From contig JADFLR010000006.1 of NCBI GenBank assembly GCA_022564295.1, forward strand, positions 1 through 64,000: a stretch of DNA of 64,000 bases, written 5' to 3'. Below the pieces are notes generated by a model. It saw only the letters and a program-made list of their open reading frames with translations, was not told where the DNA came from and did not search any database. The position numbers were made by a program, and so were the translations under genes. Source of the DNA: Bacteroidota bacterium. Its GTDB lineage: Bacteria > Bacteroidota > Ignavibacteria > Ignavibacteriales > Ignavibacteriaceae. This document shows positions 2 through 17,512 of the stretch, piece after piece. The stretch's first letter is position 1. Each line of letters begins with the position of its first letter.

Positions 2-2968
2 GCAGGTGAAAAAGATGAGGAAAGTTTACCTCCGTATGTTGTATTAAAAACATGGGCTGATTCATATAATGACCCCCACATAGAAAATTACCAAAAAATG
101 TTTGGTGATAATTTTATTATTATAGATAATACATCAAAACCAGGAACAGATAATGCTAAAATAGATGATTTTAATAAGGCAGCAAAACAAGGAGGAAAAG
201 CATTAGAAAAATATATTGAAGAGTCTGAAAAAGAAGCAAAAGTAATTGAAGACCATATAAAAAATAATATTGATGATATCCTCGAAAACATCTGCTTCGG
301 TTTTCTGAGTTTTGCGGGTAAGGATAATGAACTCCTGAGTGAAGAAGAAAAACAAAATTATTTTGATAATGCTGTTTACATATTATTTAGATTATTATTC
401 ATATTCTATGCTGAATCCCGGGAATTATTGCCAATTAGAAAGAAGGAATATAAAGCTAACAGTTTGAATGCATTGCTTAGTAATGCAAGAGGATGGATAA
501 ATTCTGGTATGCTCTCTCCCAACTCAACTGAACTTTGGGATGTTTTCAGAGATTTGTGTATTCACATTGAACACGGAGAGAATACTATGGGTATTCCCGA
601 ATATGATGGAGGATTATTCGATAACCGTGAACGACCTTTTCTGACAGACCCAAAGAATAAATTAACAAATGCTTATTTCACTAAAGTATTATATAATCTT
701 GGGTATTATCAGAAGCGTAATAGTGAAATAAAAATTGAATATCGGGATCTATCCGTAAGGAGCATCGGGAGTCTATATGAAGGAATTCTTGAGTATAAAT
801 TATTTATAGCAAATGAAGAAATAGTTATCAGAGGCAAAAAAATTATTCCTGCCGATACAGCCGGTAAAATAAAGAAAAAGGACAAGGTTATTCCAAAGGG
901 AAATGTATACTTTTCTCAGGATGCTTTTGAGCGACACGATACCGGTTCCTATTATACCCCTGAGGATGTTGTTAATTATATGGTACAGAACTCTGTGAGA
1001 TTGGGGCTTGAAGAAAGATGGATAGATTTTTTGCCAACAGTTCAAAAATACGAAAAAGAGATTATTAGAGCATTAAATGATGATTCCAAACAAAGCATTC
1101 TAAAAAAGTTTGATAACGAATTAATTTATTTCATTAATGAAAAGATTCTTACGTTCAAGGTAATGGATCCGGCAATGGGATCAGGACACTTCTTGGTTAA
1201 TTCTTTAAATGCCATTACTCATTTCATTATTGAGGTATTGCAATCAAAAGTTTTGATTAGTGATGGACCAATTAAACACGATAAAGAAATACGAACAATA
1301 AATTGGGAACTTTTCACTGGCAATAATTATGATATTGACTTAAATCCTGTTGATTGGCGAAGAAAAGTAGTTGAAAGATGTATTTTTGGTATTGATATAA
1401 ATCCACTCTCAACTGAACTTGCAAAATTATCATTATGGATTGCCTCAGCTTCTAATGGCAAACCTCTAACATTTCTTAATCATCATCTTAAATGTGGTGA
1501 TTCGATTATGGGTGTTAAGCTCCAGGACATTATGACTTATCCTTCCAATACTGTAGAAGAAAAACAATTGAAATTTGAGGGGCACATTGATCAGGAAATG
1601 ATTGAAAAGATACAAGAAAAAATCATACATCTATTGTCAATTAGTTCGGAAAAAGTTGAGGATGTTTATAATAAAAAAGAAGAATACTCTGAAATTAAAA
1701 AAGATCCATATCTAAATAATTTAAATAATATGGCAACTCTATGGTTAATGATAAATTTTGAAGTTCAAAAAAAAGGAGAGGTCCCTTTACACTTACCTGA
1801 TGCTGAAAAATATTACAAATATTTGGATAATGCATCAAAATATTTAGATAACTCCGAATGGAATAAATATTTAGGAAATTCATTAGTAGAAACAATAACA
1901 GACTTTAAGTTAAAGAAAAAGGTTTTTCACTGGGAATTGGAATTTATTGAATTGCTGGAAATAAGATTTGATACTGTAATTGGTAATCCACCTTATGTTG
2001 AAGTTTCAGACAATGACTATGTAGGCATTCCACTTATTGGATTAAAAACTAAAAACTTATACAGTTATTTTACTGAAATAAACTATAACCAAGTCCAAGA
2101 TAATGGATTTTTGTGTATGATTACTCCTATGGCGTTAACGAGCGCAAAAAAAATGAAGCCAATCAAAGATCTCTTTCTTAGACATTGTTTGTACCTAACA
2201 AATATATCTGATCGACCAACACAAGTATTCCAAGATGCGGATATTTCAGTTAATATATTTGTGTTAAGGAGGGACTCATCAAATAGAACATTTTTAACAA
2301 ATTATTTACGATTTTCAAAAAATGAAAGAAAACATTTTTTTAATACGATATCTTATCACAAGTTAGAAAATAAAGAATTCATTCTTGGATACACAATTCC
2401 TCGATTATCTAATAAGATTGAAGAAGATATTTTAACTATACTATTTAATAGCGAGAAAAAAATAAAGGATTTCTTAACAGATGAAGATAGTTATTGCAAC
2501 AAATTGTATTATCGGAGATCGGGTGGTAGGTATTATAAACTAGCATTTGATAAACCTCAGTACATCAATGTTAATGGTCAGGATGTTATTTCAGATTCAA
2601 TAAGATACATCAAGTTTCAACCTGAATATTCACAGTATATTCTAATCTCAACTTTTTATACCAGCTTATTTTACTGGTTTTACTCCCTTTATTCTGATTG
2701 CTATAACTTTGATCCAAAAGACATTTACCGTATCCCCCTTGATCTTGGTTATCTGAATAATTATAAGGAAGAGTATAAAACCTTTTATAAGCAAATTGAG
2801 CAGGATTTAGATAAAAACGCTGAAGAAGTAGTATTCAATAAAGTAAAAGGCATAACCAAATATAAAATGTTCAGAGCAAGAAAAAGTAAGGGTATTTTTG
2901 ATAAAATAGATGAGTTCACTGGAGAAAAATTGGGTTTTTCAAAAGAAATGATAGAATATTTTAATTAA
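2..2968 (+). CDS. pglX: BREX-type adenine-specific DNA methyltransferase, PglX-like (5' end outside window)
   Basis: The reading frame is open from base 2 with no stop, and the first in-window ATG at 98 is mid-protein, so the gene is cut by the left edge. From that Met (956 residues to the stop) the SAM-binding motif I DPAMGSGHF starts at residue 357 and the catalytic N6-adenine motif IV NPPY is at 630-633. The long region after the NPPY motif would hold target recognition. In BREX systems this enzyme methylates a non-palindromic site to mark self DNA; the Eco57I-like architecture fits the PglXI form of type 3. It could instead be a stand-alone type IIG enzyme, but the five BREX-like genes directly downstream argue against that. 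No nuclease motif was recognised in the visible part; the missing N-terminus might contain one. The next gene starts 29 bases after the stop. Confidence 0.85.
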   Translation, partial: AGEKDEESLPPYVVLKTWADSYNDPHIENYQKMFGDNFIIIDNTSKPGTDNAKIDDFNKAAKQGGKALEKYIEESEKEAKVIEDHIKNNIDDILENICFGFLSFAGKDNELLSEEEKQNYFDNAVYILFRLLFIFYAESRELLPIRKKEYKANSLNALLSNARGWINSGMLSPNSTELWDVFRDLCIHIEHGENTMGIPEYDGGLFDNRERPFLTDPKNKLTNAYFTKVLYNLGYYQKRNSEIKIEYRDLSVRSIGSLYEGILEYKLFIANEEIVIRGKKIIPADTAGKIKKKDKVIPKGNVYFSQDAFERHDTGSYYTPEDVVNYMVQNSVRLGLEERWIDFLPTVQKYEKEIIRALNDDSKQSILKKFDNELIYFINEKILTFKVMDPAMGSGHFLVNSLNAITHFIIEVLQSKVLISDGPIKHDKEIRTINWELFTGNNYDIDLNPVDWRRKVVERCIFGIDINPLSTELAKLSLWIASASNGKPLTFLNHHLKCGDSIMGVKLQDIMTYPSNTVEEKQLKFEGHIDQEMIEKIQEKIIHLLSISSEKVEDVYNKKEEYSEIKKDPYLNNLNNMATLWLMINFEVQKKGEVPLHLPDAEKYYKYLDNASKYLDNSEWNKYLGNSLVETITDFKLKKKVFHWELEFIELLEIRFDTVIGNPPYVEVSDNDYVGIPLIGLKTKNLYSYFTEINYNQVQDNGFLCMITPMALTSAKKMKPIKDLFLRHCLYLTNISDRPTQVFQDADISVNIFVLRRDSSNRTFLTNYLRFSKNERKHFFNTISYHKLENKEFILGYTIPRLSNKIEEDILTILFNSEKKIKDFLTDEDSYCNKLYYRRSGGRYYKLAFDKPQYINVNGQDVISDSIRYIKFQPEYSQYILISTFYTSLFYWFYSLYSDCYNFDPKDIYRIPLDLGYLNNYKEEYKTFYKQIEQDLDKNAEEVVFNKVKGITKYKMFRARKSKGIFDKIDEFTGEKLGFSKEMIEYFN

Positions 2969-2997
2969 TTACGACAGTGTTTTTCGAGTAGATTGAA

Positions 2998-4098
2998 ATG
3001 CCTAGAAAACAATTAGATAGATTAAAGGATATTTTTTTAGCACACAAAGACAAAAATGAATCTCAGTATCAGGCTAAACTCCAAGAGTATATAGATTATC
3101 TCCGTTGGAAGGGATTTAATAAAAAGGCTGACGAGTTTGAGAAAGAGTTAAACCTAAAAGAAATTAAATCAGATAATATTGAAAATATTAATGGCGACTT
3201 GCTACTTTTTAACGAAGCTGAACCATCAAAAGAACACACCATTGTTAAAGAAGAATTAGAAAAAGTGAGTTATAAGCAAAAGACAACTTGGCAAGTAGCC
3301 AGAGGAGCCGATGTAAATTTACTTAAGGCACAGCAACTACTAAGTAAATTAATTGAGGAAAATCTTGAATCTTATTCCACAGAGCACTTATCTCAAATAC
3401 TTGGTTACTCTAAGGAAAAAACTCAAGGCTTTACTAGAATACTATATTTTATGCGATTAATTGATGATGACTCTAAACAGCCCACTAAGCTGGCAAGAAT
3501 AATATTAAAAGCAGATCCTTATTTCGAAGACTTGGGAACTATATGGTTTTTACATTACAGCATAAGTTCCCAACCGAGTTTAATTATTTGGAATAGATTA
3601 ACTAATAACTTATACCAAAACACAAGTTTTACTCTTTATGATACAGAGGGATTATTTGAAGATCAAAAAAAGACTCATAGTGAATACTCTTATAAGCACC
3701 ATCTAAAGAAAGAATTCAATGTTTGCACAAACGCGTATATAAATTCTGAGTTTAAAAAACTTAATCTTTTAAGTACTAATAATAAAGATGAGTTTATAAG
3801 ATTAAAACCAGTGCAAATTCCAGACAAAGTTTTATTGGCAGTGATACTTCTTTACAGAGATAAATTTTTTAGTAATCAGGTAGCACTGGAAATTAATGAG
3901 TTATATAAAGCTGATAATTCACCTGGTAGATTAACATATATGAATGAATATAAATTTAGAGAGGCATTAGAAAGGTTAAGAATCCAAAGACTCATTTCAA
4001 TTGAGTCTTTTGCTGATCTTGATCAAATTAAGTTTAATACCTCAATGAATTATTTGGAAACACTGGAAAGCTATTTTGAGAGTAAATATAGTAACTGA
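2998..4098 (+). CDS. DUF4007-like protein in the BREX operon
   Basis: This 366-residue soluble protein lies between the methyltransferase and brxF (2 bases to the next start), so it is an operon member. Residues 1-55 are charged and helical, and 60-95 look like a linker. Residues about 105-340 resemble DUF4007: an HTH-like segment near 120-150, a conserved-looking block D173-P-Y-F-E-D178 then T-I-W-F-L-H186, and a C-terminal winged-helix-like stretch. DUF4007 proteins are known near PAPS-reductase-like and BREX or phosphorothioation defence genes; their function is not established. The N-terminal part of the family, around an aromatic/Arg motif, is not obvious here. The gene occupies the place where BrxA or BrxB might be expected, so it may be a functional substitute, which is inference. 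Confidence 0.55.
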   Translation: MPRKQLDRLKDIFLAHKDKNESQYQAKLQEYIDYLRWKGFNKKADEFEKELNLKEIKSDNIENINGDLLLFNEAEPSKEHTIVKEELEKVSYKQKTTWQVARGADVNLLKAQQLLSKLIEENLESYSTEHLSQILGYSKEKTQGFTRILYFMRLIDDDSKQPTKLARIILKADPYFEDLGTIWFLHYSISSQPSLIIWNRLTNNLYQNTSFTLYDTEGLFEDQKKTHSEYSYKHHLKKEFNVCTNAYINSEFKKLNLLSTNNKDEFIRLKPVQIPDKVLLAVILLYRDKFFSNQVALEINELYKADNSPGRLTYMNEYKFREALERLRIQRLISIESFADLDQIKFNTSMNYLETLESYFESKYSN

Positions 4099-4100
4099 TA

Positions 4101-4586
4101 ATGGCAATTAATCTTATCAAATTAATCCGGAAACTTAAAACTGAGGAAAGATATGTTGGGGCGATTTTGTTTGGACCAGCGTACTGTGGAAAAACATGGT
4201 ATTTAAAAAGGGTGATCAGTCAAAATAAAGATCAAAGAATATTATATATAGATTCGCAGAATTATTTTGAAAGACACAACAATCCGGAAAGTTTGCTAAC
4301 CACCAGGCCCAAATCATACATTGAGCAAATTCAAAAATATTCAGTAGAATCTGATATAGAGCACGAAGCAATAATTATTGATCATTCAGATGCACTTTAC
4401 AATATTTGGTCAAATCAGAAACAAGAAGAATTTATCAAAATGATGCTTAGGGTTGAAAAATCTGCCTTTAAGCTTCCACTTGTTTGGGTGCTGCAAGGCG
4501 ATGAGAGATTGGAGAATCTTTATTCTGACCAACATTCTAACACACTTAAAAAGATTATAAAGTTTAATGAATTAGAGGCAATCTAA
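4101..4586 (+). CDS. brxF: BrxF-like small P-loop ATPase (BREX type 3 hallmark)
   Basis: A 161-residue P-loop protein. Walker A is GPAYCGKT at residues 25-32. A Walker B-like strand is at 90-97 (AIIIDHSD). The size, the isolated NTPase fold and the position immediately before brxC match BrxF, an accessory ATPase reported for type 3 BREX. Its partner and role in defence are not known. The start is 2 bases after the preceding stop, so translation is probably coupled, and a 15-base gap with an AAAGGAG Shine-Dalgarno separates it from brxC. A generic AAA-like fragment is possible, but the neighbourhood makes BrxF the best call. Confidence 0.7.
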   Translation: MAINLIKLIRKLKTEERYVGAILFGPAYCGKTWYLKRVISQNKDQRILYIDSQNYFERHNNPESLLTTRPKSYIEQIQKYSVESDIEHEAIIIDHSDALYNIWSNQKQEEFIKMMLRVEKSAFKLPLVWVLQGDERLENLYSDQHSNTLKKIIKFNELEAI

Positions 4587-4601
4587 AGGAGTTAATATAA
4601 A

Positions 4602-7600
4602 ATGGCAAAAATTGCAGAAGTTATAAAATTATATCCTGGTATGTCCAATACTGTAAACCTCTCAGCAGAATTTCTGGATCCTGAAAAGAACAGAAAAAGA
4701 ATGCAAGGTTATAAACCTATCAGTTCTCATCGAAAAATTTTTCTGAAAATAGCTAAATCGTTTTTGCCAAATCAGGAAAAAGTACATCTGTTTGTTGGCC
4801 AGTATGGAACAGGCAAATCTCATTTGCTACTTATGATAGCAAATTATTTTTCAAATAGTTTGGATATGCCGGAGTTAAAAACATTTTTTAAAAATTTTGA
4901 TAAAGCTGACAAAGAATTAAGTAGACAAGTTAAAAATTTAAGAGGAGAGGGACGATATTTAATTGTCATCCCTGATTATGACTCTCTTGAAGATTTTAGT
5001 GAAAACTTGTTATCATCTCTAGAAGAAACTTTCAAAAGAGAGGGTGTTGAAGAAAAAATAGACTCTATTTATTTAGAGGCTATTAGAACTATTGCCCAAT
5101 GGCAAAAAGATGAGGATAGCGGTATTGATTCTCTAAGAAAATACAGTGCATTTATTGATAAACTAGGGAAAGAATCGGGTTACTATAATTCAATTAAAAC
5201 ACTTAAGGCAGGATTAAAAGATTACGAGCGCGCGGCTTTAATTACCTTTAAAACTATTTACAATAATTTAATAGGGACAAGCTTTAGATATAGTTCTTCA
5301 AATATTGTTGATATACTTAGAGACTTAACTAAATCGAAGTCGTTTAAAGAAAGATTTAAAGGAATAGTGTTTCTATATGATGAATTTGACCATACTCTTA
5401 AAAACAGAAGAGTATCAATCGAAGTTGTTCAACAATTTGCAGAATTATGTAAAAATTCAAATAGCATAATGTTCATCGGCTCATTGCATAAAGAACTATC
5501 TTCATTTGCTAATGATTATTCTGTCGAAGATTTTAGAACAGTACAACAGCGCTTTAAAACTATAGATATGAAAAAAGATGGTTTGGAAGAAATTGCTTCA
5601 GCAATAGTTAATGTAAAGAAAGATCATCCGTTGTATAAAGAGCAAGTTGCTCCTAATCTTCCCGGAGTTTATAATAAAGTAATCCATTTACAGCAATTAA
5701 ACTTACTCAACTGGCTAACTCCTCAAGAAATAAGAGAAAAAATTATTGATGCCGTATATCCTCTTCACCCGCTAACGATGGCTTGCCTATTAGAATTATC
5801 TACAACAATAGGATCATCCAATAGGACTCTTTTCACTTTCCTAGGCGGTGAGGGAATAGATGAAGATAACGAGTATTCTTATAAATCCTTTATAAATACT
5901 AATGATATATTAGATAGCAATGGACTCTTGAATTACTATACACCTGATTATCTAGTTGAATACTTCCAAAAAGAACTTGATATAAACAATGCCAACTTAA
6001 GAGAAACAATTAAGAGATCTGTAATTGCTTACCAATCTTCCTTGAAAGAATATAAAAGCAACCTTAGCAAAAGTGATTCAATGTTCGATGAATCAAATCC
6101 TATTTTTACTAGAATATTTAAACTTATGCTAGTTTATGAAATTGTAGGAATTGCTGGTAACGAAACCAATTTACTATTTGGTTTGAATCTTCAATTAATT
6201 GATGCGAAATCACTAAAAAATGCATTGAAATTATTAACACAACAGAAAGTGATATTTTTTAATAAACAATCACAAATTTATGAATATAGAAGAGGTTTAG
6301 ATATTGATTGGGATAGCGTTATTCAAACTGAGAAGGAATTGTTAATTAAATCAAGCAATTATGATTTGGCAAAAGACTTTTTGAATATTTATAAAGACCC
6401 AAATTATGGAAGTATCATTGATGCTAAAAAATATAATAGTGTTAAGAGTGCTGATAAAAATCTTCTCAGAGTTTTTGAGTCGGCAAAGAATTTTGGTAAA
6501 CTGAAACAAACAAATGATGGTAGCACTGTTGACTATTTCCAATATTACGAAAATCAATTACTGAACGTAGGCTCATGGAAGGATGGTTATGATGGTATAG
6601 TTATATATGTTATTACAGAAACCGCAGAGGAAATTGCAGAAGCTAAAACTATCGCAATAAAAAATAACTCTAGTTATATAATGGTTGTTATACCAGAGGT
6701 TCCCATTCCCATTAAAGATTCGTTTATTGAATTATTAGCAGCAATTAGGGTGAAAGACTCTGACGAATACAAAAATTCACCTATTGGTGATCAATCGAGA
6801 TTGGATGAAAATTATATAGGTGACATTAACAAAGGATATGTTAAAAAATATACTGACCAGAGGACCAAATATCTTAGTGGTAAATTAAGCAGTTGGTATG
6901 GAATTAAAGGAAATATTTTTGATTCAAAGCCCTCAAGCGAACAAGATCCCTCTTACAGATTTTTAATAGAACTCTATAATAAGTTTAATGATATTAATGA
7001 CGAAGAAATCAATAGAAGTCATAAAGGCTTATCGAGTAGTAAGAAGCTAATTCTACGAGATGCGATTAACCATTTACTAGAGGCGGGACAAAAAATCAGC
7101 ATCGACAAAAGTTATGGCAATGATAAAGGATTTATAAGATACCTAAAAAATGTTTTGTTTAATAAACAGTTGTTAAGAAAAACTGATCTAAATGGCTCTA
7201 TAATTTATTGTGAGGTTGAAAAAGATACTGAAAAATATAAAGATACGTTCCCAGCTCTAAAAGATATGATTGAAGAAATTCACAATAATAATTCAATTTA
7301 TTTATTAAAATTTATAAATAAATATAGATATGCTCCCTATGGGTTAAGCGAAGTGGCTCTCGAATTATTTATTTCGTTTGTTATAAAGTACTTTGGTGAT
7401 GAATTAGCATATAAACAAATTCAAAACCAGCCGGGTGAAGTTCTTCTTCAATCATATGATCAAATAGAACAAATTGTAAATAATTGTGGTCCATTCGCTG
7501 TTTTTGAAAAGAGAATACTTGATGACGTTCAGAAAGGATTAATTCAAGGATTGTATAAGAAATTTAGTGACAATCCTCTAACTGTTGGCATAACACCAAG

Positions 7601-8684
7601 GGCTAAAGAGCTATCTGATATAATAATGAATTGGTATGAAAGCCAATCGAAAATATCAAAAGCCGAGCAATTCTATGAGGATACAAAAGTTAAAAGTTTT
7701 TTACAGTTTGTAAAGTCAGATCTAATATCCGATCCATATTCTTTCCTTTTCGAAAAACTTCAAACTGTATTTGGTTATGAGCCCGATGATAAATTAGATA
7801 CTAAAATGACGGATACTATTTTTAATTCAATCGATGCCATACTAAAACAGATATCAGCAAAGAAAGACCAAGTGGAAAACAAAATATTCAGAGGATACCT
7901 CGAAATGTTTGGTGCCAAGGGTAAAACTTTTGGTAACTTAGAATCGACCATTTCTGAATGGTATAATAGTCTTGATGCAAACCAACTTGACACTAATGCT
8001 GACTGGCAAACAAAAAATACTCAACCTTTAGTAAAATTCCTCAAAGACACCCAGAATTTAAGGGAAGTAATTTATGAAAAGATACCGGGGAGTAATGATT
8101 TTGGTTTAGGAGTGATTTCAGATTGGAGTGTCGATAATGTAGATGCTTATTTGAGTAAGGTAAAAGATGGACTTGAACTGATTGGAAATGCAAAAATTTT
8201 AGTTGACATTCCCATTATTGAAGTTGAGAAAGGAGTTGAAGATTACAAGTCAGACCTTGATTTGTATGTGACATACGATAGTAAAACTGAGTTTAGGTTG
8301 AAGGTGAGTAAACCAGAGAATGCAAAAGAAATGTGGATCTGTCACGAGGGCGCTAATCCTACAGAAAAGGGAGTTCAAAAAGAAGTAGTTAAAAATGCAA
8401 CTTATATTAAACCTTCCAAAAGTCATCAGGTCATACGGTTAGTCTCTGTGGATAGTGATGGTAATTTTAGTCAAATTTTACAGATTAATTTAAAAGAAAG
8501 ATTTATTGGGACAGTAAGTGTGAATGTTTTTGGGTATGAAATAAATAGACCTAAAAATTTGGAGGAGTTTAAATTGGCTTTGAAAGATTTGCTTAATGAA
8601 GTAATTGAGAGTGATAATCTAAATCGTGAGGACTTAATTAAAATTTTAAATGAAATAGCAGATAATCTTAAAAATGAAACTTAA
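4602..8684 (+). CDS. brxC: BREX ATPase BrxC/PglY
   Basis: This is a large 1360-residue ATPase, within the usual 1200-1400 residue range of BrxC/PglY. Walker A (GQYGTGKS) is at residues 66-73 and a Walker B strand ending in YDEFDH lies near residues 255-265. The rest is long and helical, with a proline-containing beta-rich segment near residues 1200-1300. BrxC is an essential core component of all BREX types and is thought to be an ORC/Cdc6-like or Dnd-like motor acting on DNA with PglZ and PglX. An AAAGGAG ribosome site lies upstream of the start. The 3' end overlaps pglZ by 11 bases, indicating translational coupling. No frameshift or internal stop is seen. Confidence 0.88.
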   Translation: MAKIAEVIKLYPGMSNTVNLSAEFLDPEKNRKRMQGYKPISSHRKIFLKIAKSFLPNQEKVHLFVGQYGTGKSHLLLMIANYFSNSLDMPELKTFFKNFDKADKELSRQVKNLRGEGRYLIVIPDYDSLEDFSENLLSSLEETFKREGVEEKIDSIYLEAIRTIAQWQKDEDSGIDSLRKYSAFIDKLGKESGYYNSIKTLKAGLKDYERAALITFKTIYNNLIGTSFRYSSSNIVDILRDLTKSKSFKERFKGIVFLYDEFDHTLKNRRVSIEVVQQFAELCKNSNSIMFIGSLHKELSSFANDYSVEDFRTVQQRFKTIDMKKDGLEEIASAIVNVKKDHPLYKEQVAPNLPGVYNKVIHLQQLNLLNWLTPQEIREKIIDAVYPLHPLTMACLLELSTTIGSSNRTLFTFLGGEGIDEDNEYSYKSFINTNDILDSNGLLNYYTPDYLVEYFQKELDINNANLRETIKRSVIAYQSSLKEYKSNLSKSDSMFDESNPIFTRIFKLMLVYEIVGIAGNETNLLFGLNLQLIDAKSLKNALKLLTQQKVIFFNKQSQIYEYRRGLDIDWDSVIQTEKELLIKSSNYDLAKDFLNIYKDPNYGSIIDAKKYNSVKSADKNLLRVFESAKNFGKLKQTNDGSTVDYFQYYENQLLNVGSWKDGYDGIVIYVITETAEEIAEAKTIAIKNNSSYIMVVIPEVPIPIKDSFIELLAAIRVKDSDEYKNSPIGDQSRLDENYIGDINKGYVKKYTDQRTKYLSGKLSSWYGIKGNIFDSKPSSEQDPSYRFLIELYNKFNDINDEEINRSHKGLSSSKKLILRDAINHLLEAGQKISIDKSYGNDKGFIRYLKNVLFNKQLLRKTDLNGSIIYCEVEKDTEKYKDTFPALKDMIEEIHNNNSIYLLKFINKYRYAPYGLSEVALELFISFVIKYFGDELAYKQIQNQPGEVLLQSYDQIEQIVNNCGPFAVFEKRILDDVQKGLIQGLYKKFSDNPLTVGITPRAKELSDIIMNWYESQSKISKAEQFYEDTKVKSFLQFVKSDLISDPYSFLFEKLQTVFGYEPDDKLDTKMTDTIFNSIDAILKQISAKKDQVENKIFRGYLEMFGAKGKTFGNLESTISEWYNSLDANQLDTNADWQTKNTQPLVKFLKDTQNLREVIYEKIPGSNDFGLGVISDWSVDNVDAYLSKVKDGLELIGNAKILVDIPIIEVEKGVEDYKSDLDLYVTYDSKTEFRLKVSKPENAKEMWICHEGANPTEKGVQKEVVKNATYIKPSKSHQVIRLVSVDSDGNFSQILQINLKERFIGTVSVNVFGYEINRPKNLEEFKLALKDLLNEVIESDNLNREDLIKILNEIADNLKNET

Positions 8685-11028
8685 GGTTGTTCTGGATAAA
8701 ACTAAACTTATTACAGACTCAACTTCCAATATATTTGAACAAGAGACTGATTACTTTAAGGCCTTTGGCTTCATAAAAAAGAAACTAAAGGAAAAGAGAG
8801 ATCTAAGGGTAATCGTTCACAATTATTCTTTGTACAACTGGCTACTTAAGGGATTTTCAAAATATGATTTCTTGGAACTAGAGTCAGAGGAAATTAATTA
8901 CAAAGAATTATTGGCTAAAAAATGGAATATCGAGTATGACATTAATATTTCAGATGCCGATATCCTAGAGAGCAAACTTTTGGAAATGTCGCTTGAAGGA
9001 GAGTCAAAATTAAAATTTTCTGATTTTATTTTTGAACATTTTATTAGTACAAATCTAAAAATTGATATATTTTCTAAAGTTAAATTTGGTGAATTATTAA
9101 ATGATTTGATACAATTTGATAAACAAAAAAATAAATTACCAGAAATCATTCAACGTGTATATGATCAACGTATAAGAATAATCATACAAAATAATAATAA
9201 CATTAAAATCCTTGAGTTATTAGGTAAAGACATCCAAGAAGCTTACGAAATGTCTTGCATCTATAAAATTGTGTCCGGTTATTCTACCCGGATTAAACTG
9301 AATTGTTTGACGACAGAATGGTTAGAGTACTTTGATGAAGAAAAGTTAAATTTAGCAAAACTTGATGTTTCTGAATTTATTAAACACTCCCAAAATTACA
9401 AGTCTAAAGTAGTTGCAGAATTGTCTATTTATTATAATAATATTTTCATTGAAAATACTGAAGAAGTTAAAGATTTAATAAATCATTCTTCCGGAATAAT
9501 AAAAGAAGAAATTAACTACATTCTTGAAATTTTGAGGAATCAACCCGTATTTATCACCAATGAGATAATTACAATTATTAGAAGTAAATTTAAATCTATT
9601 TTATCTCTATACGGCCAAGATATTGAAGAATTGAAAGAGTATATACCAGCACCAGTACCTGGCGCTTTCAACTCTAATTGGAACATAGATCAAGTTATTG
9701 ATTGGGCTATAAATGAATACTTGCCATATAAATTCTGGATGGATCGGACTAAGAAGTATGACGAAGAAATCTTAGCTTATGGCAGTGGTTTTTCAGATTA
9801 TATTTATAATAATTATGATAAAATAAGTTATCATTATAACAATTTAGCTCACCGCTTTCTTTTCAACCTTAAAGACATTATCAAAGAAACTGACGTTGTT
9901 GTATTGCTTGTCCTCGACAATTTTAACTACAGATTTTTTCAAGCACTCAAATCTTCCTTAAAAAAATATCAGTTTGTAATCAAGAATGAAGATCCATACT
10001 TAACGCTTCTTCCCACGGAAACTGGAATTTCTAAGATCAGTATCATCTCCGGATTTAGAGATAAAATGGATAATAAAGGTTTAAGCTATGAAAAAAGTTT
10101 GATGGAAAATTGGAAAGAATATTTCCCAGATCATAAAATTACTTATACGTCTAAAATTGGATCACTAAATGATTATGAAGCATCGGGAAAAGAAATTATT
10201 CTTGTAAATTATTTAGAGCTTGATAAGGAACTTCATAGATCGTTCGAGAAGACTGCAATTGAACATCAAGAAACGATTCGGTTTTTAATTAATGGAATTA
10301 CAAAAGCTATAGATAAATTTAATAAAGCAAATAGTTTGGAGAATAAAATTAGGATATTCTTTATTTCTGATCACGGATCTGTTATAATTAATAAGGAAAT
10401 TAAAAACGAACTCGATATTAAGTATTTTAAAGAATATAAAATTGATCCCAGTCACCGATTCTTAAGATTAGATGAGAAGGAATATAAAAATTTTAAGGAA
10501 AATGTTAATATTTCGGATGGAATCTATTTTTTAGATAAAGAAATATCTGGAGATGGGACTAATTACATTTTAGCAAGAGGATACAATAGATTTATTGATA
10601 TCTCTGAAGAGTTTTACGTTCACGGCGGAGCATTACCAGAAGAAGTAATTGTACCTGGCGGATATTTTGAATATCAATATGGAGCTCATAAATTACCTAT
10701 TATACAATTGAAAAAAACGGATTATCGGTACTTAGTAAAGGATAATATTCGTTTACGAATTGCTAATCCAAATGAGTTACCATTGGAAGATATTGTAATT
10801 GAGGTCTCAGGGAATGAAGGTATATTTACCCAAATAATATTAGATAAAATTGGACCTAATGGTGAAATGAACATTGAAAGACCTATACGTATAGAAGAAA
10901 AAGATTTAAAGGAATTACAAATAAATCTAAGTTATAGAATAATAAATGAATCAAATGAGTTTATAGTAAAATTTCCTATTAAACTAAAAACTATTGTCGA
11001 AAATAAATTTGATTTTGAAGATTTTTAA
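8674..11028 (+). CDS. pglZ: BREX phosphatase-superfamily protein PglZ
   Basis: A 784-residue protein with a C-terminal half in the alkaline-phosphatase superfamily. The expected landmarks are present and in order: a metal-binding VLDNFNYR strand with D415, a nucleophile-type LPTETGIS segment with T450, the SDHG motif with D566 and H567, and VHGGALPEE with H650. The N-terminal 400 residues are helical and unassigned. PglZ is the signature protein of BREX; a nuclease or phosphodiesterase activity has been described for some homologues, and it is needed for both methylation and phage exclusion. The start overlaps brxC by 11 bases and brxL follows after 10 bases. Catalytic residues look intact, so an active enzyme is likely. 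Confidence 0.87.
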   Translation: MKLKVVLDKTKLITDSTSNIFEQETDYFKAFGFIKKKLKEKRDLRVIVHNYSLYNWLLKGFSKYDFLELESEEINYKELLAKKWNIEYDINISDADILESKLLEMSLEGESKLKFSDFIFEHFISTNLKIDIFSKVKFGELLNDLIQFDKQKNKLPEIIQRVYDQRIRIIIQNNNNIKILELLGKDIQEAYEMSCIYKIVSGYSTRIKLNCLTTEWLEYFDEEKLNLAKLDVSEFIKHSQNYKSKVVAELSIYYNNIFIENTEEVKDLINHSSGIIKEEINYILEILRNQPVFITNEIITIIRSKFKSILSLYGQDIEELKEYIPAPVPGAFNSNWNIDQVIDWAINEYLPYKFWMDRTKKYDEEILAYGSGFSDYIYNNYDKISYHYNNLAHRFLFNLKDIIKETDVVVLLVLDNFNYRFFQALKSSLKKYQFVIKNEDPYLTLLPTETGISKISIISGFRDKMDNKGLSYEKSLMENWKEYFPDHKITYTSKIGSLNDYEASGKEIILVNYLELDKELHRSFEKTAIEHQETIRFLINGITKAIDKFNKANSLENKIRIFFISDHGSVIINKEIKNELDIKYFKEYKIDPSHRFLRLDEKEYKNFKENVNISDGIYFLDKEISGDGTNYILARGYNRFIDISEEFYVHGGALPEEVIVPGGYFEYQYGAHKLPIIQLKKTDYRYLVKDNIRLRIANPNELPLEDIVIEVSGNEGIFTQIILDKIGPNGEMNIERPIRIEEKDLKELQINLSYRIINESNEFIVKFPIKLKTIVENKFDFEDF

Positions 11029-11038
11029 GGAATAATAA

Positions 11039-13069
11039 ATGGAAAAATTCGAATCGTTATCGCTGGATTACTTTGGAGAAATAGTAATAAAAAAGTCTCT
11101 TATTCACGAAGCTGGATTTGGGAGTAGGGCTATTCCAACATATGTGGGTGAATGGATCATATCTAATTTTGTAAAAGATAAACAAGAATTGAATAAAACT
11201 AGTCGAGAAAAAATTGCTAATTTTATTAGCGCATATGCTCCTGCAAAGGGTGAGAAAGAGAATCTGAAGAATAGATTATTTGAACAGGATGAGATTAAAC
11301 TCTTGGATAATTTTTCTGTTTATGTGAACTTAGTAAAGGGCGATCGATTTTTAAATATTCCTTTTTTAGATGAAAGTTCTGCATTTGTTTCTCCTCAGAT
11401 TGTTGAAACTAACGAAATGCTATTGAGTAGTGGATTATGGGGTGTAGGTACTTTATTCTACATTCCTCCTGGAGATGAAAATCCTAAGGGTCAGATTTGG
11501 ATGAAAGAATTCAAACCTTTTCAGTTAGCTAATGTTGATATTAGCTATTTCTGTGAAACAAGGAGTCAATTTTCTACTGACGAATGGATTGAATTAATCG
11601 TATCCTCAATGGGATTTAATCATAATCTTTATAGTGACAGACAAAAAATTCTTCTCATTTCTAGGCTTTTGCCAATGGTTGAGCCGAGATATAATTTGGT
11701 GGAACCAGCTCCAAAAGGTACTGGCAAATCATTTGTATTTGATAATATGTCAAGATATGTAGCAGTAAGATCCGGATCAATTTCACCTGCAGTACTTTTT
11801 TTCAATGATACAAGAAAAACGCCAGGATTAATAACAAGATATGATTGCGTTGTTATAGATGAGGCACAAAAAGTAAAAACGGATAGTAGTGGAGAATTAA
11901 CAGCATTACTTAAATCTTATCTTGAATCTGGAAAATTTGGAAGAGGAAGTGCGGGTTCGATAACTTCAGAAGGAGGAATTGCCTTACTCGCAAATATTGA
12001 TATAGATGAAAATAGACTTCCGGTTAACAATGAGATAGGTCTTTTCAGAACATTTCCGAATTTTTTAAGGGAAACGGCTTTTATTGATAGATTACAAGGT
12101 TTACTTCCAGGTTGGGAATTACCAAGGATAACAAAAAATACTCCTTCTAATAGTTATGGATTTAAAGGTGACATATTTGGTGAGATATTACATTCACTAA
12201 GAAGTGATGTCAGTTTCAGAGACTATGTAAAAACAAATATGGAACTAGATCAGTGTGATGATATGCGCGATAACAAGTCTATTGAAGCTGGAACAAGTGG
12301 ATTGCTCAAGATTATCTTTCCGAATAAAAATCCCAAAGAGGAAGAATTTTATAAGTATTGTGTAAATCCTGCACTTGAGTTAAGACAAAGAGTGAGGGAC
12401 GAATTGTGCAAAATAGATAGAGAATATTTTCCAAAGAACTTGAAATCAAAATATCCAGATTCGTTTCAAGTTAATCATATATTACCAATTTATTATGATA
12501 TTGACACTGACGGTAAAAAAAATACACTAGCCATACCAAAATCCGAAAAAGATAGTGTAGATGTGTTTATTGATGATCCATTAAAAGTTAATCGTAAACC
12601 AAAAGATACAGTGTTGAGAATTAAAGAAGGTGCTAAGGGTTATTCATATAAGAACTTATTCTATCCCTACTTGAAAGAAGCAAAAAATATTAAACTAATT
12701 GATCCTTACATTAGGAATGAATATCAAATAAAAAATTTCATAGCTTTTTGCGAAATTTTAACTCCTCCTGAAGGTAACATATCAATTAGTCTAAGTACGA
12801 AATTTGGAGATAAATATCAGAAAGAAGATCTAGAACAAAAATTCAAGGAATTACAGAAGGATTTATTAGTCCATGGGATTATGTTTTCATATTCATTTGA
12901 TGATTCAGCGCACGATAGATACATTGAGTCAGATAATGGATGGAGAATTTCATTGGGGAGAGGATTGGACATATTCCAAAAACCAGAGAGTAATTATGGT
13001 TTGGGTGAATTTGATCAAAAAAAAAGAAAATGTAGAAGAACAGATATTAATTATAGAAGAATGGGATGA
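11039..13069 (+). CDS. brxL: BrxL-like AAA+ protein with MITD1-type C-terminal domain
   Basis: A 676-residue protein. The N-terminal about 200 residues resemble the BrxL DNA-binding region (YFGEIVIKKSLI then a YVGEWI motif). The AAA+ core has Walker A APKGTGKS at 224-231 and Walker B VVIDEA with D274 and E275. I see no Lon-type Ser/Lys protease region. Instead residues about 536-676 match my recollection of the MIT C-terminal (phospholipase D-like) domain of MITD1: DPYIRNEYQIKNF, H625-D-R, N633-G-W, G640-R-G-L-D644, and a terminal R-K-C-R run. BrxL is a multimeric DNA-binding ATPase in type 1 and 4 BREX. A stand-alone MIT_C-fused ATPase outside the BrxL family is an alternative. The domain assignment needs a profile search. 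Confidence 0.75.
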   Translation: MEKFESLSLDYFGEIVIKKSLIHEAGFGSRAIPTYVGEWIISNFVKDKQELNKTSREKIANFISAYAPAKGEKENLKNRLFEQDEIKLLDNFSVYVNLVKGDRFLNIPFLDESSAFVSPQIVETNEMLLSSGLWGVGTLFYIPPGDENPKGQIWMKEFKPFQLANVDISYFCETRSQFSTDEWIELIVSSMGFNHNLYSDRQKILLISRLLPMVEPRYNLVEPAPKGTGKSFVFDNMSRYVAVRSGSISPAVLFFNDTRKTPGLITRYDCVVIDEAQKVKTDSSGELTALLKSYLESGKFGRGSAGSITSEGGIALLANIDIDENRLPVNNEIGLFRTFPNFLRETAFIDRLQGLLPGWELPRITKNTPSNSYGFKGDIFGEILHSLRSDVSFRDYVKTNMELDQCDDMRDNKSIEAGTSGLLKIIFPNKNPKEEEFYKYCVNPALELRQRVRDELCKIDREYFPKNLKSKYPDSFQVNHILPIYYDIDTDGKKNTLAIPKSEKDSVDVFIDDPLKVNRKPKDTVLRIKEGAKGYSYKNLFYPYLKEAKNIKLIDPYIRNEYQIKNFIAFCEILTPPEGNISISLSTKFGDKYQKEDLEQKFKELQKDLLVHGIMFSYSFDDSAHDRYIESDNGWRISLGRGLDIFQKPESNYGLGEFDQKKRKCRRTDINYRRMG

Positions 13070-13159: not shown

Positions 13160-14926
13160 ATGTCAATCACACAACTAGACAAAAAGGAATTAAATAAATA
13201 CTATATTGAATTTTCATCAAAGTATGGTGGAATGAAGGAAGATTATTTTGCTTTCCTTTATTTGACGAAAAAATTTGGTAAGGGTATAGGTTTGTTAGCC
13301 CAGCAAGTAGCCTTCGGCGGAAATGATTATGGAATCGATGGATATTACATTGATAAAGACACGAGGAATTTTTATTTATTTCAATTTAAATGGTCTGAAA
13401 ACCATAATCTTTTTAAAGAATCACTTGAAAGATTAACTAAGGCAGGATTAGAACGTATATTTGGTGATCCGTATCAGGATCCTGGTATGAATGAATTACT
13501 AGTGAGTCTTAAAAATGAACTATTCGAGTATAAGAATCTTATTGATAAAATCTATATCCAGTTTATCTTTAAAGGCAACGTAGAAGATGCTGAGAACTCA
13601 TCGGGTCTTAATTACCTGAGAGAAGAATTGGAAAATAAAAAATGGTTGATTGATAAATATTTTGGTGATAAAAAAGTTGATTTAATTTTTGAATTCATTT
13701 CAGATAAAAAAACTTCCACCCGTACTCAACCGGTTGAGACACACACGTTAAGTATTTCAAGCTTTGTGGAGCATTCAATAGACAATAAACAAAAAATGTA
13801 TATTGGCTTTGTACCTATCTACGAACTTGATCGTATTTATCAAACTTTAAATCTTAAATTTTTAAATCGTAATATTCGGGCTGGCCTGTCGGATGAAAAT
13901 CCACCAAATAGAAAAATTAGGGAGGCATTACAAGATATTGCTATAAATAAAGGAATTACACCAGATATTTTTCCATTTAATCATAATGGAATTACACTGG
14001 CAGTCGAAAGAATCAAGACAACTAACAATAAAGTTGAAGTTAAAGTACCACGTTTGCTGAACGGTGCTCAAACTATCAGATCTGTAAGAAAGTTTTTGGA
14101 AGATAATTCTGAACACCCAGAGTTTGACGAATCGATATTCAAAGAAATAAAGGTACTAACCAAATTTGTTGTTGATACAGTAACAAGTAACTTCATTACT
14201 ACGGTGACTATATGCAATAATAGACAGAATCCAGTTGAGCCTTGGCATTTAAGAGCGAACGATAAAATCCAATGCGATATTCAGGATAAATTTCTGTATG
14301 ATTTGAGTATATACTACTCCCGCCAAGAGAATGCCTTCGAAAACTTAACCGATTCTGACTTGGAAGAGATGGGTGTAGAGGATCATCGTGATATAGAAAT
14401 CAAACCCCTCGCAAAAACCTTTCTAGCAATTCAGGGAGAAATTGATAAAATATCCAGGTTGACGGATGTTTTTGAGAACCAGAAATTTTATGAAAATACT
14501 TTTCGTGCATCTTACTTAAAAAGTGATTTTTCCAAGCTGCTGTTATCATACAAAATACTATTATTATTAAATCCGGTAATAAGACAAATGAGAGAAGCAG
14601 GGCCTGAATATTTATACTATGGGCTAAATAGAGCGAGAAATGTAATTGCTGCGTTATTAATTCAGGGAACCCTTAACGATGGTAAATTAGAGCAGTTAAA
14701 AGAGTGGTATGGATATAGTTTAAGGAGAGAAGCAGACTATAAGGAGTATTTAACAAAATTGGGTAAGAATAAAATTTTACCAATTATTAAAGAAGTATTA
14801 AAAGAAAAAATCTATAGAAAAAAACTTGATGAGGAAAAGTATAGCATCTTTCGTACAAAAGAATTTTTTAGGAGATGTATGTGGGTTTCTGAAGATTGGT
14901 ATGGTTGGAGTAAAAAATCTATTTAA
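13160..14926 (+). CDS. AIPR-family abortive-infection protein with PD-(D/E)XK-like nuclease motif
   Basis: A 588-residue protein typical in length for AIPR (abortive infection phage resistance). Near the N-terminus GGNDYGID with D60 is followed by F-Q75-F-K77, the spacing of a PD-(D/E)XK nuclease core in its D..QxK variant. AIPR landmarks follow: NHNGITL near residue 272 and LLNGAQTIRS near residue 299. Family members act in abortive infection; a nuclease role is inferred from the motif. It lies 90 bases downstream of brxL on the same strand, so it may be read through from the BREX operon or have its own promoter. It could be a second-line suicide module triggered when BREX fails, which is inference. 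Confidence 0.8.
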   Translation: MSITQLDKKELNKYYIEFSSKYGGMKEDYFAFLYLTKKFGKGIGLLAQQVAFGGNDYGIDGYYIDKDTRNFYLFQFKWSENHNLFKESLERLTKAGLERIFGDPYQDPGMNELLVSLKNELFEYKNLIDKIYIQFIFKGNVEDAENSSGLNYLREELENKKWLIDKYFGDKKVDLIFEFISDKKTSTRTQPVETHTLSISSFVEHSIDNKQKMYIGFVPIYELDRIYQTLNLKFLNRNIRAGLSDENPPNRKIREALQDIAINKGITPDIFPFNHNGITLAVERIKTTNNKVEVKVPRLLNGAQTIRSVRKFLEDNSEHPEFDESIFKEIKVLTKFVVDTVTSNFITTVTICNNRQNPVEPWHLRANDKIQCDIQDKFLYDLSIYYSRQENAFENLTDSDLEEMGVEDHRDIEIKPLAKTFLAIQGEIDKISRLTDVFENQKFYENTFRASYLKSDFSKLLLSYKILLLLNPVIRQMREAGPEYLYYGLNRARNVIAALLIQGTLNDGKLEQLKEWYGYSLRREADYKEYLTKLGKNKILPIIKEVLKEKIYRKKLDEEKYSIFRTKEFFRRCMWVSEDWYGWSKKSI

Positions 14927-16009: not shown

Positions 16010-17512
16010 TTAATAAGTAACTTTTATACAATAGATCTCAACCATTTTAGAAGTCTCAGAATTTAATTCATAAAACTTTACTGTTACGTTTGCCGTTGAA
16101 CTCTCGGTATCTATTTCAGCAACACCATACACAGATGTTATTATAATATCATCATTATACTCTACTTTTTCTGGCATCGCCCATTCAGGTCTGAATATTT
16201 CATACGAAAAGTGTGGATCCTCCTGATTTGCCGGTATTAGAAGATGCCCGGTTGTCTTTCTATAATGTAGGGGTGAAGCCGAAAAATCAAAAACAGCAGT
16301 ACCTAAATTTTCAAATGAATATTCGATTGAACTATCAGTTCTGGAAACATAATTTAACGGGCTTTTCCAATTAAGAATATGCGAACTAGGGTAATGCTGG
16401 TCGCCGGAAAAAATCATAACACCATAGATCTGATTTTTTTCTATAAAAGATAAAATTTTATTGCGTTCAAATGTGTAGCCCATCCAGCTATCAAATCCAT
16501 CTCTGCCTGATGAAGTATCGCCGCCATAATCGTTTGAAGGAACACTTGAGAACACAATTTTAAATTTGGCTTTCGAATTTTTTAATTCAATTAATAACCA
16601 TTCCAATTGTTCACTTCCCAGCATAGTTTTCATTTCTCCATCCTCATTTTGCATAGGTGAACGGTACCAACGTGTATCAAGCACAAAAATATCTACATCC
16701 GCAATAGAAAATTTATAATATATCCCGCCATCTTTTACTACAAACGAATAATCAGGAAAATTCTCTTTAAAAACTTTTCTTGCTTCTTTTTTATATGGAT
16801 ATGTCCTATCAGAATTATCCAAGCCATAATCATGATCATCCCATATAGCCATCAGCGGAATACTGCTTACCATATTTTGAAAGTTTACATCAAACACACG
16901 ATTATATTTATTTCTGAATGCCCCCAGTACTGTTTTATCATCGAGAATAATTTCACCTTCCTCAACCATTGCCTGCCGAATGCTATCATTATTAAGATAT
17001 AGTTCGAGCTCATTTAAATTGCCATCGTAATCGGAATACATTTGATCACCAAGTAAAGCCACAAACGAGGGAGAAGATTGCTCAATTTTTTCAAAAATAT
17101 TATAGCCCATATATTTTTCTCTTAAACAAGCGGAAAAAATGAAATTAAATTTTCCCGCTATTCCTTGTTCCGGAAAGGTTTTAAACCTAAACCACTTAGA
17201 ATAATTGCCATCCCCGAATTCAACTCGATAATTATACTTAGTATTTGAATTGAGATCAGTTAATATTAAGTTTGCTGAGTTCGAATATTCGTCTGAAAGT
17301 TTTTCCCATTCGGTAAATCTGCCGGGTGATTCATCAGTTCTTTTGTATTCTATACGAACTTCGCTTTCGGCTATAGTTTTTATAAGTATGGGAACCTGGT
17401 TGTTTTGAATGATACCAACAACTGGTTGGCGTAATAAATCATTAGACTCTTTTCTGCTGCAAGCAAACAGAATAAGAATTAATAATAATATTGTTGTGAT
17501 TTTTCTGCTCAT
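16010..17512 (-). CDS. PhoD-like phosphoesterase lipoprotein
   Basis: A 500-residue protein with a lipoprotein signal: a hydrophobic stretch ending LFAC, with the lipobox Cys near residue 18. A fibronectin-like N-terminal domain (to about residue 115) precedes a PhoD-type metallophosphatase domain. Metal-binding motifs are visible: the SACLREK block, GDQMYSD, WDDHDYG and SGDQHYPSSH. PhoD enzymes hydrolyse phosphodiesters or phosphomonoesters outside the cytoplasm and usually need Ca/Fe. It is a close paralogue of the adjacent upstream gene, with long blocks identical in protein, but lacks the T9SS tail and is anchored by lipid instead. Substrate is unknown; glycerophosphate polymers are a guess from the glycerol genes nearby. 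Confidence 0.82.
   Translation of the reverse strand: MSRKITTILLLILILFACSRKESNDLLRQPVVGIIQNNQVPILIKTIAESEVRIEYKRTDESPGRFTEWEKLSDEYSNSANLILTDLNSNTKYNYRVEFGDGNYSKWFRFKTFPEQGIAGKFNFIFSACLREKYMGYNIFEKIEQSSPSFVALLGDQMYSDYDGNLNELELYLNNDSIRQAMVEEGEIILDDKTVLGAFRNKYNRVFDVNFQNMVSSIPLMAIWDDHDYGLDNSDRTYPYKKEARKVFKENFPDYSFVVKDGGIYYKFSIADVDIFVLDTRWYRSPMQNEDGEMKTMLGSEQLEWLLIELKNSKAKFKIVFSSVPSNDYGGDTSSGRDGFDSWMGYTFERNKILSFIEKNQIYGVMIFSGDQHYPSSHILNWKSPLNYVSRTDSSIEYSFENLGTAVFDFSASPLHYRKTTGHLLIPANQEDPHFSYEIFRPEWAMPEKVEYNDDIIITSVYGVAEIDTESSTANVTVKFYELNSETSKMVEIYCIKVTY

Follow-up and report, generated by a model that had tools for sequence, protein, structure and literature searches.

In the stretch of DNA analysed here (the window, 64,000 nucleotides from the start of a contig of an Ignavibacteriaceae genome), a phage-defence ATPase of the BrxL type ends in a domain that resembles the C-terminal domain of human MITD1. 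What could such a domain do on BrxL, in what kind of system is it encoded, and how is it related to the human protein? There is still no agreement on how BREX systems arrest phage DNA. A BrxL protein with a probable nuclease tail, as sequence comparison and structure prediction suggest for this one, would couple a DNA-encircling motor directly to cutting.

Domain composition of the BrxL protein

The gene lies at 11039..13069 on the plus strand, as do all genes and domains of the locus described below, and encodes, from ATG to stop in an intact frame, a protein of 676 aa (P0001). The original prediction, made from the sequence and its open reading frames, ascribed BrxL-like N-terminal and AAA+ regions to it. 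Both were recovered: BrxL_N at residues 11-141 (11069..11461; PF20442, 3e-26) and the BrxL AAA+ ATPase domain (BrxL_ATPase) at residues 154-466 (11498..12436; PF13337, 3.7e-98). The NCBIfam equivalog model for BrxL, TIGR02688, scores 432.5 bits against a curated cut-off of 329.3 bits, and the PADLOC BrxL model PDLC02508 (698 positions) spans residues 9-674, i.e., the full length. The Walker A stretch G227-T-G-K-S231 and the Walker B residues D274-E275 are invariant in 63/63 sequences (alignment A2, window included).

A Lon-like tail, which had been predicted to be missing, was ruled out using the NCBIfam model for Lon-tailed BrxL. With TIGR02653 the score is 242.8 bits (cut-off 628.25 bits) and the match is confined to residues 8-468, so the Lon part is absent. 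In a phmmer search of the PDB with the single sequence, BrxL 8EMC was matched over residues 6-464 only, and human MITD1 was retrieved over residues 526-671 (E 6.2e-29). The tail at residues 534-672 (12638..13054) matches PF16565 (MIT_C) with 148.3 bits (cut-off 25; E 1.8e-43; profile positions 1-140 of 142). The tail motifs quoted for the MITD1 assignment, including HDR, NGW and GRGLD, are all found in the translated sequence.

The predicted structure of the full-length protein (63-sequence alignment) has a mean pLDDT of 85.5; from residue 521 on, the blocks are mostly at 92-97, with two at 82 and 85. Its best matches are the BrxL structures 8EMH/8EMC, and over the tail the top Foldseek match is MITD1 2YMB_A (E 2.7e-15, TM 0.91 by target, rmsd 1.7). 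When the tail was modelled alone (pLDDT 95.7), it superimposed on MITD1 with a Z of 22.7 and an rmsd of 1.6 over 152 residues. Judged by family models and predicted fold, the BrxL of the window carries, instead of Lon, a C-terminal domain of the MITD1 type, as originally proposed.

The locus and its relation to known BREX types

The genes from 98 to 13069 are collinear; neighbours overlap slightly or are a short gap apart. The first (98..2968) encodes an Eco57I-like adenine DNA methyltransferase (PF07669, 6.4e-21). Its frame is open over 2-97, up to the first bases of the window, which are also the first bases of the contig; thus, its N-terminus is probably cut, and anything upstream is missing. 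Among the PADLOC models, DrmMI of DISARM matches it best (7.9e-71, 237.3 bits), PglX-type models being weaker (47.8 bits with the mixed 'PglX|PglXI' models). Therefore, the BREX label rests on BrxL, BrxC/SspC and PglZ. The second gene encodes a DUF4007/SspB-like protein (2998..4098; PF13182, 1.6e-22; SspB model, 2.3e-17). In two related loci, the DUF4007 proteins (L141:871-2358 and L144:936-2198) have an N-terminal UPF0758_N match of the helix-hairpin-helix type. This match, an additional module of their branch, passes the cut-off in L141 and falls just short of it in L144. A small P-loop protein follows in place of BrxF/BrxB (4101..4586; AAA_22, 1.2e-5, below the cut-off); it was placed there by its size, position and rapid divergence (alignment A5), not by a BrxF profile. 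Its motif reads GPAYCGKT in the window and is eroded in L141 and L144, which is reminiscent of the inactive STAND proteins of BrxB/BrxF described in the available part of PMC12839542. Next come an SspC/BrxC-like large ATPase (4602..8684; PADLOC SspC 4.7e-38, BrxC 6.9e-13) and PglZ (8674..11028; PF08665, 0.00091, below the cut-off; PADLOC PglZ 9e-9). The PglZ residues D415, T450, D517, H521, D566, H567 and H650 are invariant in 15/15 sequences (alignment A4) and presumably represent the metal-site pattern expected for its superfamily.

An AIPR/AbiU-like abortive-infection gene (13160..14926; PF10592, 6.9e-22; AbiU, 1.3e-20) starts 90 bases 3' of BrxL. It has no match in the compared loci beyond the window's own locus and is probably exchangeable cargo of this copy. 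Upstream of BrxC, relatives carry cargo such as GmrSD with a weak HEPN match (L036), AAA_21 with DUF4276 (L040) and Schlafen AlbA_2 (L044). The G+C content is 29-31% across 1-16 kb compared to 33-40% from 16 to 30 kb, a contrast compatible with horizontal acquisition of the locus. A PhoD-like phosphatase gene at 17557-19329 carries sorting domains of the type IX secretion system (Por_Secre_tail, CHU_C), which points to a Bacteroidota-like host, and a second PhoD gene lies at 16010-17512.

The same genome also holds a Type-1 BREX system with an MIT_C tail: a second BrxL-MIT_C protein is encoded beside PglX (1143.7 bits), PglZ type A and BrxC, which pass the Type-1 or BREX cut-offs. The BrxC, PglX, PglZ and two small upstream proteins of this Type-1 system have no match within the window, the queries for the two small proteins being insensitive (they matched 1 of 83 Type-1 loci). 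The BREX-1 PglX model gives 77 bits in the window against a cut-off of 500. The window locus was therefore rejected as Type-1, its PglX score being below the cut-off and no Type-1 relatives having been detected in the window. In a comparison with Type 3 by models, we found BrxL rather than BrxHII, and P0002 had no BrxF model match.

With the Type-4 systems compared (L151, L152, L174, L175), the locus shares the BrxL lineage and the order BrxC, PglZ, BrxL, and with L152 also DUF4007; the fit to Type-4 extends to these features only. The Type-4 references carry a PAPS reductase for phosphorothioation (by annotation, and by Pfam for L174 and L175) and L152 also a cysteine desulfurase, whereas neither was detected in window-type loci. 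Three Type-4 PAPS reductase proteins found no match in the window, which begins at the methyltransferase at the contig start. The PAPS reductases, the cysteine desulfurase and the Type-1 queries have no relatives in the window, in L149 (see below) or in the 24 loci with the best tail matches (L032-L055, scored with window-type and Type-1 reference proteins); the PAPS queries gave zero positives among the searched loci. Pfam models applied to six upstream ORFs (L141, L142, L144, L145) recovered no sulfur-gene or Type-1 relatives. Moreover, the Type-4 BrxL proteins have 474-485 aa and lack a tail, in contrast to the tailed BrxL of the window. Thus, the window locus matches neither the Type-1 nor the Type-4 BREX systems that we compared.

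To place the BrxL core, we used a tree of 53 rows; it was made by a quick method and has long branches (L152, L155, L151), so that its details are unsure. The window clade comprises 21 rows: the window, L143, L037 and, of the 24 loci, the 18 that are full-length. One branch (SH-aLRT 100) separates these 21 rows, the four Type-4 references and the tail-less L149 from 27 Type-1 rows, whose tails are of the HRD or the Lon kind. If the tree holds, this suggests that the BrxL core of the window belongs to the Type-4 lineage. The window clade has a support of 99 with L149 and of only 24 without it, so L149 may sit inside the clade. L149, from an Abditibacteriota plasmid (AP024153.1), has the order methyltransferase, DUF4007, small P-loop protein, BrxC, PglZ, BrxL, and its BrxL of 486 aa ends without a tail. 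The gene after this BrxL has an ArdC N-terminal match just below the cut-off. In a tail tree of 72 rows, tails of the window type and those of two Type-1 sets are for the most part separate from one another; those of the window itself and of L032 fall near the base in no settled order, and the tail of L023, an MIT_C protein without a BrxL core, groups with the window clade. The trees give no sign of recent tail swapping, and either an ancestral tail with losses or several gains may account for them.

A tail of this kind has been described. According to the available part of PMC12839542 (Rakesh and Krishnan 2026), which cites Li et al. 2025 on this point, a 'HKD-endoDNase' tail with an HRD motif occurs in 1030 cases among 2913 Type-1 taxa with BrxL and is specific to Type-1; a C-terminal extension is lacking in Type-4 BrxL, and Types 2 and 3 do not have BrxL. 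The HRD motif is read there as likely preserving enzymatic activity, and a small unassigned fraction was discarded from the survey. The name MITD1 does not occur in the main text of that paper. PMC12715929, as far as its available part goes, names PF16565 among the BREX Pfams and cites an earlier study, so that the link is in print. From motif, fusion partner and context, we infer that the published HRD tail and MIT_C are the same family; the tail itself is thus very probably already known. Within the openly licensed PMC literature, we found no paper connecting MITD1 to BrxL and no report of the tail on a Type-4-lineage BrxL with a methyltransferase. The protein of the window has in common with the published Type-1 proteins a BrxL core and a PLD-type HRD tail that replaces Lon, and differs from them in the Type-4 lineage of its core and in its locus, which encodes a methyltransferase and DUF4007. 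Neither the window nor its relatives fit the scheme of a Type-1-only tail and a tail-less Type-4 BrxL given in the available part of PMC12839542. If the core tree holds, the HRD tail extends beyond Type-1 BREX, and the Type-4 branch also includes systems with a methyltransferase replacing the sulfur machinery.

Predicted function of the tail

After MITD1, the tail model is closest to SauUSI (Z 9.2), yeast Tdp1 (9.1) and phosphatidylserine synthase (8.8), with further matches to the NgoAVII R-protein (8.4), NucT (8.4), Zucchini (8.1) and BfiI (7.8). The 50 rows of this fold comparison carry chiefly names of the PLD superfamily, lipid enzymes among them. The PLD-fold nucleases among these rows have a Z of 7.7-9.2; values of 7-9 are modest and, according to the tool's own warning, may reflect a shared arrangement only (MITD1 excepted). 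A Lon fold is absent from these rows, an absence that alone is no proof. We conclude from the model that the wider fold of the MIT_C tail is that of phospholipase D, as in SauUSI, Tdp1, NgoAVII and BfiI. SauUSI, titled ATP-dependent, and NgoAVII/BfiI likewise have a PLD-fold domain in a restriction enzyme, but their motors are different, and they share 6-10% identity with the window tail.

The original prediction named H625/D626 as a candidate PLD-like site. In alignment A2, D626 is variable (D in 55, A in 7 and R in 1 of 63 sequences), so this pair was rejected as the active site. H625 and R627 are invariant (63/63), and position 632 is D in 56/63 and N in 7/63. The triplet H625-x-R627-x4-D632 (12911..12934), a predicted half active site, has the spacing of the HxKx4D motif of PLD nucleases, with K replaced by R in every aligned member. 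SauUSI and NgoAVII/BfiI have K in their HKD motif, and PLD nucleases with one such motif per chain work as dimers. D555, R559, Q563, N566 and W635 are also invariant in A2. A loose text scan covered 113 tails, that of human MITD1 among them; H-x-R was present in all, followed five positions on by D in 102, N in 10 and S in 1. Part of this conservation stems from the searches themselves: the pattern for genome_contigs prescribed the RGLD stretch, and two patterns for viral_contigs prescribed parts of the DPYxR..Q and D/N-N/T-G-W stretch, which affects 11 of the 63 rows; H625 and R627 lie outside all patterns used to find loci.

The original prediction spoke of a membrane- or nucleic-acid-binding effector. 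Its leaning towards membranes or ESCRT is the weaker side, and membrane/ESCRT function, given the fold list and the gene context, is demoted from the main reading to a rival. MITD1 itself reportedly binds membranes (Hadders et al. 2012), and a tail that binds or acts on the inner membrane in the manner of MITD1, killing the cell or tethering the complex, would agree with the family and with the phospholipid-acting PLD folds in the fold list, which also count against a nuclease. We nevertheless think such an effector improbable, since the domain is fused to the AAA+ part of BrxL and encoded with a DNA methyltransferase and predicted DNA-binding partners, and since several DNA-acting enzymes are among the folds that rank highest by Z after MITD1. 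A DNA nuclease appears more likely because restriction nucleases and Tdp1 are among these top folds, because the HxRx4D spacing is kept and because the partners (relatives of a methyltransferase, DUF4007, BrxC and PglZ) are DNA-modifying or predicted to bind DNA.

On balance we favour, as the more probable reading, a BrxL that acts as the motor-effector of restriction in a BREX-like system based on methylation, with a DNA-loading ring and nuclease tails that pair across a double ring. By analogy with the assembly of Type-1 BrxL on DNA, the AAA+ ring would load on unmodified invading DNA, and the tail, a built-in nuclease rather than a membrane effector, would cut the DNA that the ring encircles. 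The tails of opposing rings may pair at the equator and form composite active sites of the H-x-R-x4-D kind, turned towards the DNA inside. The methyltransferase would mark self DNA; DUF4007, BrxC and the small P-loop protein may recognise and license; and PglZ, with its likely metal-site residues retained, could be a second nuclease. According to the available part of PMC10164562, Lon-tailed Type-1 BrxL forms a double ring around DNA in which opposing rings meet at the equator through their C-terminal domains; its Lon tail lacks a conserved protease site and dimerises the rings tail to tail. Equatorial pairing is proposed because of these contacts of the Lon tails and because of the half-site dimers mentioned above.

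The same contacts also suit a purely structural role, in which the PLD-fold tail would only dimerise rings or grip DNA in place of the inactive Lon, and PglZ would cut. Since the Lon-type tail has no protease active site (available part of PMC10164562), BrxL can work without an active tail, a point that also counts against the nuclease reading. The invariance of the likely metal-site residues of PglZ agrees with this role, as do the replacement of K by R in all aligned members and the tail-less BrxL of L149, a close system; the last two also speak against the nuclease reading, as does the N in place of D632 in seven aligned sequences and in human MITD1, where the third motif position appears dispensable. 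A structural domain, however, need not keep H and R at the exact HKD spacing in 63/63 sequences while the D626 between them varies, and we regard a structural role as rather unlikely, if still the stronger of the rivals to the motor-effector.

Distribution of the domain and its relation to human MITD1

MIT_C was found at E <=0.001 in 29 of 395 genomes of the phylum, 26 of them over the cut-off, own genome included. In genome_contigs, at least 591 stretches match the search pattern and at least 568 encode a relative, of which the best 80 were retained. The tail also occurs in 29 IMG/VR loci, which may in part be host DNA, and in 24 plasmid records. No tail was found among 50,697 phage records, which speaks against a phage origin. 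Thus, the combination of BrxL with MIT_C, given at least 568 related stretches and the published Type-1 HRD tails, is not rare. A chance fusion or an assembly artefact in a single genome might be suspected, as 97 bases of contig precede the start of the first gene and as, outside the own genome, no window-type BrxC match in the 395 phylum genomes exceeds 40.7 bits. This explanation has a negligible probability, since the same architecture recurs in the 18 full-length relatives of the window clade and at least 568 stretches in genome_contigs encode the tail.

Recurrence of the tail next to BrxF/PglZ had been named as support for the original prediction, and in the relatives it does lie beside PglZ, BrxC and a BrxF-sized protein. 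Window-type BrxC and PglZ are both present in 15 of the 24 best loci, one of the two in 3 (L033, L038, L053) and neither in 6. In five of these six, the BrxL or tail ORF lies no more than about 200 bases from the contig start. The sixth, L041 (7967-9010), is a counter-example and probably a remnant: the BrxL start is joined directly to MIT_C, most of the ATPase domain is missing, and 7.9 kb upstream contain no BrxC or PglZ relative. A methyltransferase relative is found in 10/24 loci (7 within the locus, and L036, L040 and L055 in upstream DNA; the L043 match is the same record as one of the queries), and DUF4007 with the small P-loop protein in 7/24 (L032, L037, L043, and the upstream DNA of L036, L040, L045 and L055); for these genes the remaining loci are cut or have their upstream DNA outside the comparison. 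The second context is that of Type-1: 72 of the 83 loci L058-L140 carry at least one relative of the Type-1 queries (PglZ 65, methyltransferase 56, BrxC 15), and window-type BrxC, PglZ, DUF4007 and BrxF are found in 0/83. A relative of the window-type methyltransferase is found in one of the 83, L076, a locus without a BrxL core. In L037 (8412-10462), separate ORFs with a 4-base overlap encode the BrxL core and the MIT_C tail (455 + 228 aa), close in summed length to the fused homologue L043 (685 aa), which may be a real split or a frameshift; the same genome has a fused copy too (L143).

The C-terminal domain of human MITD1 (2YMB, 4A5Z) shares with the window tail the family, the fold and the DPYIR, HDR, NGW and GRGLD motifs, but is joined to an MIT domain, which binds ESCRT-III, instead of BrxL, and has N at the position of D632. 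Its identity is 36% to the window tail and 52% (73/141 residues) to the BrxL tail of Pseudomonas L084, a locus with distant Type-1 methyltransferase and PglZ relatives only (89 and 34 bits). In the tail tree, MITD1, a flagged long branch represented by the single human sequence, joins one Type-1 tail group (20 rows including MITD1, support 100/99). A grouping with the window clade gave a p-AU of 0.0567, which is no formal rejection. The nearest bacterial group without MITD1 has a branch support of only 60/4, so a position inside it and one beside it both fit. These data suggest that eukaryotes captured the MITD1 domain from BREX, the bacterial origin being deduced from the greater diversity in bacteria. 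The 52% identity suggests in turn that the domain of a cell-division protein came from phage defence, and the relationship raises the question of residual phosphodiesterase activity in MITD1. We hold the wider reading tentatively, at somewhat less than an even chance: that eukaryotes captured a BREX nuclease domain and put it to new use as the membrane-binding domain of MITD1, with H and R retained, and that the window locus is a further methylation-based BREX type whose Type-4-lineage BrxL carries the predicted nuclease.

The domain also occurs outside BrxL. In L076 (9329-12526), MIT_C occupies residues 233-370 of a 1065-aa protein, followed by 17 Sel1-repeat stretches, near an Eco57I-type methyltransferase. 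The L023 protein (805-3414), which is cut, has a tail similar to that of L076. It is possible that these two represent a further defence use of the domain. In L026 (1033-1959), a 308-aa protein that lacks a BrxL part matches MIT_C in part (32 bits).
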